A stretch of 64,000 nt of DNA from Bradyrhizobium sp. (GTDB taxonomy: Bacteria; Pseudomonadota; Alphaproteobacteria; Rhizobiales; Xanthobacteraceae), in assembly GCF_022844465.1 (NCBI RefSeq), contig NZ_JALHLP010000001.1, forward strand, positions 372,001 through 436,000, read 5' to 3'. The notes beneath the pieces are model-generated. The model made no database searches. It was not told the DNA's origin and saw nothing but the letters and a program-made list of their open reading frames with translations. A program made the translations under genes and the position numbers. Every line of letters begins with the position of its first letter. The first letter of the stretch is position 1. Shown here in pieces: positions 12,916 to 17,891 of the stretch.

Positions 12916-14559
<1,644 letters not shown>

Positions 14560-14582: not shown

Positions 14583-15362
14583 TCAGTTGCGTCGCGGAAT
14601 CGGGAAATCATAGGCCTGGCCGCCCGCCCCCGGCAGCGAAAAATGCCACCATTCCTTCCAATAGTTTACGAATCCTCGCCGCGTCATCACCTCTACCAGT
14701 TTCTGCCGCCACCGGCGCTGGGCCGCCGTGATCGATGTCGCCTGGGTGTGCGACCTGACGTCGGAACAGTCGAAGCCGGTGCCCATGTCGACGCTGCCTT
14801 CCGGCGCGCGAATGTCGGCGTTGGCGACGCAGTCGGCGTAATCCCGGGCGGGGTCGAACGTGGCTGAGTTGTCGGCTTTCAGATCGACCAGCGTGAGGTC
14901 GAGCGCGGCGCCGGTGGAATGGCCGGAGCGTTCGGCGATGTAGCCGAGGCGAAACAGATCGACCTTGTCGAGCGCCGGGTGGTAGCGCTTCTGCGCTCGG
15001 GTTTCGTGGCCGTCGCGCGACCAGACCACGATGTCGGCGGTCGCCCGCGCCGGGCGGTAGCAATCCAGCATCTTCAGCGACAGACCCTGCGGCGCCAGCT
15101 CTTGCTGGATTTGCCGCAGCAGCACGCCGACCTCACGCTTCACCACGCATTCGGCGGCGTCATACCCCCGGAGCGGTCGCCCGACGAAGTTGTTCGAGCC
15201 CGCGTAGCGAATGTCCTGGAGGATGGTCGGGTCGATGTCACGCAGATAGACGAAGCCGGACGGCAGCTTTTGCGCCTCAGCGACTGCGCTGGCGAGACAA
15301 CTTGCCAGGCAGACCGCAGCAAGCGCCATCGATGCCTTGGCGCGCCTCCTGGCACGGATCAC
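14583..15362 (-). CDS. Exported VanX-like D-alanyl-D-alanine dipeptidase (peptidase M15D)
   Basis: A 259-residue zinc D,D-dipeptidase. Zinc ligands H148 and D155 (SGHSTGAALD) and H240 with catalytic E237 (EWWH) are all present, plus the conserved CYRP arginine near 103. I choose the GTG at 15362: it overlaps the caspase gene stop as GTGA and supplies an Arg-rich n-region before a hydrophobic leader; an ATG at 15329 would remove that charge. The leader contains LASC (19-22), so it could be a lipoprotein or an ordinary secreted protein cut after AEA. It likely hydrolyses D-Ala-D-Ala in the periplasm; coupling to the caspase gene is unusual. Confidence 0.9.
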   Translation of the reverse strand: MIRARRRAKASMALAAVCLASCLASAVAEAQKLPSGFVYLRDIDPTILQDIRYAGSNNFVGRPLRGYDAAECVVKREVGVLLRQIQQELAPQGLSLKMLDCYRPARATADIVVWSRDGHETRAQKRYHPALDKVDLFRLGYIAERSGHSTGAALDLTLVDLKADNSATFDPARDYADCVANADIRAPEGSVDMGTGFDCSDVRSHTQATSITAAQRRWRQKLVEVMTRRGFVNYWKEWWHFSLPGAGGQAYDFPIPRRN

Positions 15363-16786
15363 TGCACCCGCTCCGAGCCGACCAGCAGCTTGCTGATCGC
15401 GGTATCCGTGTATTTGTTGCCGGCCCAGACGTCCTCGATGATGAACTTGACCCAGTAGGCCCGTACCGGCGTCGGCAATGTCAGAACTTCCTCGCCGAGG
15501 CCATCGCGCAGACTGAACGTCTGCGTCTCGCCTTGCGAGAACACCGCGCGCAACTGGCGCACGCGGTTGTTCTTGCGGAAGATGTCGTTGTTCTTCTGGT
15601 AGCCGTTCTGGACGTGGATGGATTTCACCAGCCGCACGGCGTCGAACTCGACCGTGATCCACTCGCCGACGCCATTGCCGTCCCTGCCCTCCACCCACGC
15701 GGTGGCGCTGGAAGCGTTGAACAGGTTCTGCGCGCCGTAGGAATTGCCGAACTGCGGCTTGAGCACCGAACTGACGCAATAGGTCTCGGCGCCGTTGCGG
15801 GCGCAGCTTTCGCCCGGCGCGCCCGGCCGCGACGTTCGCGCCGCCCGCTCCGGTTCCGGCGACGCGCTTGCAAACTTGGTCTCCGGTTGCTCGATGCGGT
15901 TGGCGCTCGACAGCCCGGCGAGGTAGATGCGGCCGCCGAGGGTCTGATCGTAATAGGCCGGCGTCTGCTCGTGCGGCGCCGGCTGGCCCTGCTCGTCGGT
16001 GGCCTGCAGCGCCAGCGCGGCGACGCGCTCGCGCACCTCGACGGCGAGGTCGCCCAGATGCAGGTCGGGGCGCTTCAACTGCTCGGCGAATACCCGCGTG
16101 AACACCGAATTGTGGGCGGCGTCGCGGCCGCCGAGCCGGTCCAGCGCGGTCTGGCCGATGCCGGCGGAATACAGCGTGAAGATGCCGCGCGCAGGACGGG
16201 CGTCGGCGAGCCCCCGCGTGTTGCCGATCGAGCGGCCGGCGGCGCGCGGGAACGGATTGTCGCGGCAGGCGTCGATCACCAGCAGCGCCACCCGGACCGA
16301 CTTTGCCTGCAACTCGGCAATCAGGTCGGGCTCGGCGAGCGAGGCTCCGCGCACCCGCGCTTCCGCGCCTTCGGTGACGGCCGGCACGTCGCTCGGGACC
16401 AGGTAGTTGACGCCCGCGATCGCGACGCCATGGCCGGCAAAGAACAAGGCCGCCGTGTCGCCCGGCTGCAGCCGCGCGGTGAACTCCGCAAGCTTGTCGA
16501 TCATCGCCTGGCGGCCGAGATTGGTGCCGACGATCACCTCGAAACCCAGCGATTTCAGGGTCGCCGCGATCGTGGTGGCGTCGTTGGCGGCCTTCTTCAG
16601 CTGCCGGTCGGCGGGCAGATTGGGATAGAGATCATTGCCGATGGCAAGCGCGATCCGCCGCTCGGCGGCGGCCGGCGTGGCCGCCAGGCCGGCGAGCACG
16701 AGCCATGCGACCGCCATCAGCAGCGTCCGCGAGGCGATCCGAACGGATTGAATGAAATGCCGTAGCTTTTCCATGGCCTCATGCAT
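15359..16786 (-). CDS. Exported caspase-like (C14) peptidase with C-terminal discoidin-like domain
   Basis: A 475-residue protein with a signal sequence (about 1-41, ending PAAAE), a caspase fold with His119 (FFAGHG) and Cys174 (VIDACRDNP), a linker, and a C-terminal beta-rich region (about 335-475; NLFNASSATAWVEG, ITVEFD, VKFIIEDVW) resembling the discoidin / NADase-type glycan-binding domain. Bacterial caspase homologues cleave after basic residues; the leader places this one in the periplasm or at the surface. An alternative ATG at 16774 is possible. Directly upstream of and overlapping the D,D-dipeptidase gene. Confidence 0.88.
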   Translation of the reverse strand: MHEAMEKLRHFIQSVRIASRTLLMAVAWLVLAGLAATPAAAERRIALAIGNDLYPNLPADRQLKKAANDATTIAATLKSLGFEVIVGTNLGRQAMIDKLAEFTARLQPGDTAALFFAGHGVAIAGVNYLVPSDVPAVTEGAEARVRGASLAEPDLIAELQAKSVRVALLVIDACRDNPFPRAAGRSIGNTRGLADARPARGIFTLYSAGIGQTALDRLGGRDAAHNSVFTRVFAEQLKRPDLHLGDLAVEVRERVAALALQATDEQGQPAPHEQTPAYYDQTLGGRIYLAGLSSANRIEQPETKFASASPEPERAARTSRPGAPGESCARNGAETYCVSSVLKPQFGNSYGAQNLFNASSATAWVEGRDGNGVGEWITVEFDAVRLVKSIHVQNGYQKNNDIFRKNNRVRQLRAVFSQGETQTFSLRDGLGEEVLTLPTPVRAYWVKFIIEDVWAGNKYTDTAISKLLVGSERVQ

Positions 16787-16937: not shown

Positions 16938-17891
16938 ATGACCCCTGCATCGAAATCGACCTTCGTCCTCGGACACCGGCACCTGCTGGGAATCGAGGGG
17001 CTTTCGGCTGCCGACATCACCGGCCTGCTCGACCTCTCCGAGGAGTATGTCGAGCTCAACCGCCAGGTGGACAAGAAGCGCACCAGCTTGCGCGGTCGCA
17101 CCCAGGTCAACCTGTTCTTCGAGGCCTCGACCCGTACCCAATCCTCGTTCGAACTGGCCGGAAAGCGGCTCGGCGCCGACGTCATGAACATGTCGGTTTC
17201 CTCGTCCTCGATCCGCAAGGGCGAGACGCTGATCGACACCGCGATGACCCTCAACGCCATGCACCCGGACATCCTGGTGGTGCGCCACCACGCCTCCGGC
17301 GCGGTGGAACTGCTCGCCCGCAAGGTCGACGGTTCCGTGATCAACGCCGGCGACGGCAGCCATGAGCATCCGACCCAGGCGCTGCTGGACGCGCTCACCA
17401 TCCGCCGCAACAAGGGCCGGCTGGAAGGGCTCGTCATCGCGATCTGCGGCGACGTGATGCACTCGCGGGTGGCGCGCTCCAATATCCTGCTGCTCAACAC
17501 CATGGGCGCCCGCGTCCGCGTGGTGGCGCCCTCGACGCTGCTGCCGCGCGGCATCGAGCGGATGGGCGTCGAGGTCGCGCGCGACATGCGCGAGGGCCTC
17601 AACGGCGCCGACATCGTCATGACGCTGCGGCTGCAGCGCGAGCGCATGAACGGCTCCTTCGTACCCTCGAGCCAGGAATACTTCCATTATTTCGGCCTCG
17701 ATCAGAAGAAGCTGGCCTACGCCAAACCGGATGCGCTGGTGATGCATCCGGGGCCGATGAACCGCGGCGTGGAGATCGACTCGATCGTGGCCGACGGCGC
17801 GCAGTCGCTGATCCGCGAACAGGTGGAAATGGGAGTGGCGGTGCGGATGGCGGTGCTGGAAGCGCTCGCCCGCAACCTGCCGAACGCCTGA
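16938..17891 (+). CDS. pyrB: Aspartate carbamoyltransferase catalytic chain
   Basis: Catalyses carbamoyl phosphate + aspartate to carbamoyl aspartate, the committed step of pyrimidine synthesis. The 317-residue product has the carbamoyl-phosphate motif [13 protein letters not shown], the HPTQALLD loop and [12 protein letters not shown]. The ATG at 16938 gives the normal alphaproteobacterial N-terminus ([11 protein letters not shown]); the frame is open 69 bp further up. The pyrC-like gene follows after 1 bp, and the pair probably makes a joint complex (see that entry). Confidence 0.97.

Follow-up and report, generated by a model that had tools for sequence, protein, structure and literature searches.

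A caspase-discoidin protein and a VanX-like D,D-dipeptidase encoded by a conserved gene pair in Bradyrhizobium and its relatives

The locus described here lies in a stretch of 64,000 nucleotides from Bradyrhizobium sp. (assembly GCF_022844465.1, contig NZ_JALHLP010000001.1, positions 372,001 to 436,000), hereafter the window, and consists of a caspase-family gene followed on the same strand by a gene for a VanX-type D,D-dipeptidase (Table 1). The dipeptidase gene is followed by an aidB-like acyl-CoA dehydrogenase gene, possibly co-transcribed with the pair in the source genome, and the divergent pyrB gene marks a site that is conserved in the genus. The original prediction had placed both genes at exactly these coordinates and had reported a GTGA overlap between them, which is found at 15362-15359.

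Table 1. Features of the caspase-dipeptidase locus (positions within the window; residues within each protein)
Feature	Position	Strand	Remarks
Caspase-family gene, 475 aa	15359..16786	(-)	ATG start; Pfam, NCBIfam, alignment
Caspase protein, parts			Leader ~1-41 (by eye); caspase domain 43-284; NADase-type discoidin domain 333-467
GTGA, dipeptidase start codon over caspase stop	15359..15362	(-)	Sequence
VanX-type D,D-dipeptidase gene, 259 aa	14583..15362	(-)	GTG start 15362-15360, stop 14585-14583
Dipeptidase protein, parts			Leader ~residues 1-30 (by eye), then M15 domain
aidB-like acyl-CoA dehydrogenase gene	12919..14559	(-)	Starts 23 bases past dipeptidase stop
pyrB, divergent neighbour	16938..17888	(+)	Marks conserved site in genus; context only

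The caspase-family protein joins a Peptidase_C14 domain (Pfam PF00656, residues 43-284, E 6.6e-29, 101.7 bits against a cut-off of 21.4) to a C-terminal domain (residues 333-467) that matches both PF25302, NADase_transloc (E 9.7e-29, 100.9 bits, cut-off 27), and the NCBIfam model NF047619, 'NADase-type glycan-binding' (E 8.2e-42, 142.4 bits, cut-off 38). The F5/8-type-C model PF00754 stays under its cut-off on this tail (25.9 vs 28.2 bits), and a profile of the tail compared with the PDB recovers the translocation domain of the streptococcal NAD-glycohydrolase, the namesake of PF25302 (7ji1, E 3.4e-14), with a weaker match to neuropilin-1 (E 3e-4). Glycan binding by the tail is predicted from the name of its domain family. 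The catalytic dyad, H119/C174, is invariant in 39 of 39 aligned caspase domains, and the intact active site predicts proteolysis. The protein is one of 12 C14 matches in the source genome and falls below the cut-off of the model for EACC1-associated caspases (NF047832, 34.9 bits, cut-off 140). Among plasmid records, 261 match its caspase part, all with coverage of the query below 80%. The mature protein was modelled with AlphaFold2 from 8 rows, but the mean pLDDT of 59.2 is too low for the model to be of use.

The dipeptidase matches Peptidase_M15 (PF01427, E 3.7e-32, 112.2 bits, cut-off 27), and the sole PDB relative found by sequence is VanX (1r44, 8xz2; E 4.2e-30). Its scores against two equivalog models, that of VanX (NF033115, 161 bits vs a cut-off of 320) and NF007557 (96.4 vs 176), place it as a relative of VanX and not as an equivalog of either model. 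Residues R103, H148, D155, E237, and H240 are each shared by at least 97% of 69 aligned dipeptidases; H148, D155, and H240 correspond to the zinc ligands of VanX, E237 to its catalytic Glu, and R103 to its active-site Arg. Three cysteines of the protein stand at sites where VanX has other residues, and a fourth lies in an insert. The N-termini of both the caspase and the dipeptidase look like leaders, with a hydrophobic stretch and an A-x-A site (judged by eye). Leaders on both products, an intact His119/Cys174 dyad, a discoidin-like C-terminal domain, and the full set of zinc-dipeptidase residues had all been named in the original prediction, and each of these is borne out, the leaders as far as inspection by eye goes.

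That prediction had held a functional link unlikely should the pairing be confined to this strain, or should the genes be separated in close relatives, and had proposed a neighbourhood survey. The survey finds the link kept far beyond the source strain: among the distinct caspase-discoidin loci of the sampled genomes, 52 of 56 have a dipeptidase gene within ~2 kb, the 56 being made up of 29 loci from the genus sample, 8 more from the order sample, 18 from family f201 beyond locus L152, and 1 from genome G213. The four loci that lack a nearby dipeptidase gene are L210, which is cut by a contig end, L148 and L149, whose genomes (G851 and G1023) carry an M15 gene elsewhere, and that of G213, a genome with no M15 match. 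In the latter (L131, 5871-9809), the caspase-discoidin gene faces a second caspase, whose tail weakly matches NCBIfam models of peptidoglycan-binding type. In a set of 60 relatives, 42 match the dipeptidase query and 9 match PF25302, and all nine PF25302 genes adjoin the dipeptidase on the same strand (by coordinates). For close relatives the picture is divided: the pair recurs, but among the 36 genomes of the genus in this set the dipeptidase is present in 35 and PF25302 in 6. The larger genus sample has PF25302 in 30 of 242 genomes and no match in the other 212; 28 of its 29 caspase-discoidin genes adjoin a dipeptidase gene, the 29th being L210, and the remaining hit (L209) shows neither caspase nor dipeptidase. 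Two of these 28 pairs (L196, L200) have a frameshifted caspase gene.

Beyond the genus, PF25302 occurs in 22 of 297 genomes of the order sample (24 hits). Ten of these hits are caspase-discoidin genes, eight of them with a dipeptidase gene within 1.5 kb, and 14 are without caspase, two of them with a dipeptidase gene nearby. The domain is rare in the class sample (6 of 385 genomes) and in the phylum sample (5 of 398, three over the cut-off). A metagenome-assembled genome of a candidate phylum carries the pair in reversed order, dipeptidase then caspase-discoidin, overlapping (L115); the contig is short (3 kb) and is to be read with caution. A discoidin match near a dipeptidase gene in the Deltaproteobacteria (L103) belongs to a separate protein ~0.8 kb away and was not counted. 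Discoidin-domain proteins without caspase, many of them short, are seen in the order sample (L150, L157, L159-L162, L164-L169) and in f201 (L225, L230-L232), with an SH3-like stretch in L225 and L231 (by eye) and no dipeptidase gene within 1.5 kb of any of them. The caspase gene of G915 (L153/L172) is interrupted by a stop; its relative in G861 (L156/L174) is intact.

Family f201, of the same order, has PF25302 in 21 of 87 genomes (23 hits) and the caspase-discoidin gene in 19; those 19, and no others, give a full-length dipeptidase match (E of 3e-50 or below). The search used a single query protein and matched 22 of the 87 genomes; G1258, G1264, and G1278, with short partial matches (E 4e-9 to 4e-4), were not counted as having dipeptidases. 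In two genomes that lack the gene (L252, L254), the only match to this query (L152, from 655) is to its first 24-29 residues, and the chosen start is therefore probably too early. The 19 genomes fall among 45 of one genus (counted by hand), and in all of them the two genes lie within ~2 kb of each other, 16 within 1.5 kb and three ~2 kb apart, with an exported-looking gene in between in the one such locus that was read. The arrangement is tail to tail in 18 genomes; in G1295 it is head to tail, and the coordinates give an overlap of 4 bases. A downstream flank is common to 18 of the 19 loci, and independent events may therefore be few; in this flank comparison a more distant caspase was picked for L259, the locus of G1295, where the upstream grouping is unreliable. 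Positions 1-10700 of L259 hold four caspase-family genes on one strand, including the caspase-discoidin gene that overlaps the dipeptidase gene by 4 bases.

The stop-start overlap is itself conserved. Within the genus, the letters NTGA are found at all 26 loci from L183 to L208, as well as at L120 and L125, and outside it the overlap is seen at L155 (one of two loci of family f199), L129 (f15), and L130 (f19). At L128 the dipeptidase start immediately follows the preceding stop, and at L151, L153, and L156 an ATG lies 8-10 bases past the first base of the stop. The Bradyrhizobium-type gene order has pyrC-pyrB on one strand and, on the opposite strand, the caspase gene, where present, followed by the dipeptidase gene and aidB. 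The aidB-like gene does not adjoin the pair in the other families examined, and the neighbours of the pair vary across families f9, f12, f15, f19, f199, and f201, as listed at some loci, not all. A comparison of the neighbours across families yielded some weak similarities; several are antisense frames of the pair itself, and others involve an ABC-transporter ATPase, close to the pair in f9 and f199, and a UppP-like protein, found in f9 and f19 at a distance of several kb (both named by eye). ATPase genes beside the pair lie at 422-1504 of L128, ~9.1-12.9 kb of L170, and ~8.9-10.1 kb of L173, those of f199 on the other strand, and L170 has near them a gene that looks like one for an iron-type binding protein (by eye). 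In the genus, a second CPBP-type gene stands beside the first, downstream of aidB, at the caspase-bearing loci L144, L146, L147, L039, and L040 and at the caspase-less L054, and the caspase-less L145 has a palindromic, repeat-like stretch between pyrB and the dipeptidase gene (by eye).

The protease part of the first gene is exchanged in two genomes. At L129 (f15) a Trypsin_2 domain (E 4.3e-13) is fused to the discoidin domain, and at L130 (f19) the discoidin domain is fused to a part without Pfam match, the gene overlapping the dipeptidase gene in both cases. With E values of up to 1 allowed, Pfam gives no match for the N-terminal region of the L130 protein or for those of three proteins that have the discoidin domain alone. 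Each exchange is seen in one genome, from sampled families of two (f15) and one (f19) genomes, and the second f15 genome, which is less complete, gives no PF25302 match. The class of protease thus varies while the discoidin domain, the overlap, and the dipeptidase stay, suggesting that the tail and the dipeptidase form the constant core of the arrangement.

The dipeptidase is also kept where the caspase is missing. In the set used for a dipeptidase tree, 94 of 134 dipeptidases show neither a caspase nor a discoidin gene in the flanking sequence available, a few of these loci having little sequence upstream. The caspase is patchy on this tree, with 17 changes of the 'caspase-discoidin' label, a figure that serves as a guide only, since the tree was built quickly, has weak support at many branches, and does not separate gain from loss; 16 loci (genome or species copies, from a hand list) and dipeptidases shorter than about 170 residues were omitted from it. 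A screen of 50 caspase-less loci, two of them (L048, L056) with fewer than 330 bases upstream, found the start of a caspase gene left before the dipeptidase gene in four (L012, L014, L016, and L045). These remnants are 91-100% identical over 20-44 bases, three of the four in frame with the dipeptidase, and are most simply read as deletion of the caspase gene in that clade; at the other 46 loci gain and loss of the caspase are not distinguishable. Over 26 linked loci, the caspase domain has a median dN/dS of 0.091, the discoidin domain one of 0.225, and the dipeptidase one of 0.196, the frameshifted L196 and L200 being excluded as in all these sets; the unlinked dipeptidases (24 loci) are under similar constraint without the caspase (0.184). 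Distances between caspase domains correlate with those between dipeptidase domains (37 linked loci, r 0.956), an effect due in part to shared descent. Caspase-discoidin genes without an adjacent dipeptidase are rare and dipeptidases without a caspase are many, and the usefulness of the caspase therefore seems tied to the dipeptidase more than that of the dipeptidase to the caspase.

The protein families involved are known ones. The dipeptidase shares its catalytic domain and active-site residues with other M15 enzymes, namely PcgL of Salmonella, DdpX of E. coli, and VanX of enterococci. PcgL is periplasmic and has a leader, as the dipeptidase here appears to have. PcgL is described as a D-Ala-D-Ala dipeptidase of Salmonella in PMC7933661. 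In contrast to all three, the dipeptidase described here is coupled to a caspase-discoidin gene, and it differs from VanX in its extra cysteines and in its scores below the cut-offs given above. The caspase, for its part, has the domain and His-Cys dyad of the prokaryotic caspase homologues (metacaspases and orthocaspases). The survey of these proteins with record number PMC3501461 is that of Asplund-Samuelsson et al. (2012). Portions of that survey describe caspases that are exported, operons with caspase genes, and how abundant caspases are in rhizobia; its supplementary operon table aside, these portions name neither a dipeptidase partner nor a fusion to an NADase-type discoidin domain (PMC3501461). 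Pairs of a protease with a second enzyme, in which caspase and trypsin alternate, are likewise found in the canu caspase-nuclease and the Hachiman/AVAST protease-nuclease systems, which are defence loci with a gated nuclease (PMC12799240), whereas the partner here belongs to M15 and the products look exported. A canu-type MBL-fold nuclease with a gating insert was not found at the pair, and no insert is limited to the linked rows. As for the tail, the streptococcal NAD-glycohydrolase has been linked with glycan binding, and its domain contacts a partner protein in one modelled state, according to extracts of PMC9887584; the discoidin domain here differs in being C-terminal and fused to a protease, with no sign of a toxin or of host-cell entry. 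Searches of the open-access literature by title and abstract, on the pair and on caspases in rhizobia, found no description of it, in line with the original prediction that no such system had been described. Within that scope, the novelty lies in the pairing and in the pattern of domain exchange.

We place slightly better than even confidence in a reading in which the pair is a conserved, exported two-protein module of the envelope whose members both act on one process, the turnover or remodelling of peptidoglycan, around a core of discoidin domain and dipeptidase. The caspase-like protein would cross the inner membrane, outside which the NADase-type discoidin domain would hold it at a glycan or a partner protein, and the protease domain would then cut a protein of the envelope or outside the cell. 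The dipeptidase would reach the same compartment after translation coupled to that of the caspase and would hydrolyse D-Ala-D-Ala there, as PcgL of Salmonella is reported to do, and the two proteins would share their process at a particular site of the envelope, the protease being an exchangeable or removable accessory. The periplasmic, wall-linked setting proposed by the original prediction is one that we likewise infer, and the functional link that it suggested gains support from the conserved linkage. What the sequences show is membership of the named families, complete active sites, linkage that recurs, the overlap, and the retention of the dipeptidase after the caspase has gone; export, enzymatic activity, a shared process, its site, and the accessory part of the protease are inferred from there.

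Other explanations have to be set against this one. The exported look of the products, the glycan-binding type of the tail, and the patchy presence of the pair in the genus would also suit secreted or surface proteins that face outward, with the discoidin domain binding a glycan of a competitor or plant host and the enzymes acting on foreign material, and extracellular and fratricidal roles of caspase homologues have been raised in general terms in portions of PMC3501461. We consider this unlikely, as no secretion-system or immunity gene was noticed among the listed neighbours, a D-Ala-D-Ala dipeptidase would make a poor weapon, and the dipeptidase is conserved alone. Another view, that the genes are neighbours without common function and the caspase is a chance passenger beside a dipeptidase gene of old housekeeping type, accords with the much wider spread of the dipeptidase, with the repeated loss or gain of the caspase, and with the frameshifted copies in L196 and L200. 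It is decidedly unlikely, given that the pair recurs in several families, among other neighbours and in two orientations, that both genes mark the same 19 of 87 f201 genomes, and that the overlap persists with a different protease part.

Two further explanations turn on the protease. Caspase homologues act in some bacterial death and defence systems (PMC12799240), and with both products presumed to act in the envelope, a stress-triggered death or lysis module, as the original prediction had suggested, might be supposed. This finds little favour here and is highly unlikely in our view: no lysis or pore gene was noticed beside the pair at the listed loci, the dipeptidase is no lysin, and caspase-less relatives keep it under similar constraint. 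D-Ala-D-Ala dipeptidases are not known to cleave cross-linked peptidoglycan. Among PADLOC models, the caspase matches the general 'caspase' model and none of the specific defence models, and the dipeptidase matches none. Activation or destruction of the dipeptidase through cleavage by the caspase was considered because caspase-nuclease and trypsin-nuclease pairs such as canu work in this manner, and the coupling of the genes and the alternation of caspase and trypsin, as in those nuclease pairs, would fit it (PMC12799240). It is very improbable: linked and unlinked dipeptidases of the genus (30 vs 24 rows, frequency threshold 0.5) are not set apart by any position, and the one insert relative to VanX occurs in unlinked dipeptidases as well and is missing in the linked L151, leaving no residue or insert restricted to the linked enzymes, and a caspase-activated dipeptidase was rejected on this ground.

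A bolder form of the reading preferred here, that of an exported module of peptidoglycan turnover, would make the discoidin domain and the D,D-dipeptidase a fixed core onto which a protease head is plugged, caspase or, in at least one lineage, trypsin-like, which cuts an envelope target according to the state of the wall; this would amount to a caspase pathway in the periplasm, tied to the D-Ala-D-Ala terminus of wall precursors, and we put it forward as a doubtful, if possible, extension. Rhizobia and their kin carry many caspase homologues, and a role is known for few of them. A steady partner of predictable chemistry offers a handle on such a protein, in that the dipeptidase names the compartment and the process in which the target of the caspase may be sought. 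If the preferred reading is true, the pair would represent an exported caspase pathway, in contrast to the intracellular caspases of defence systems.
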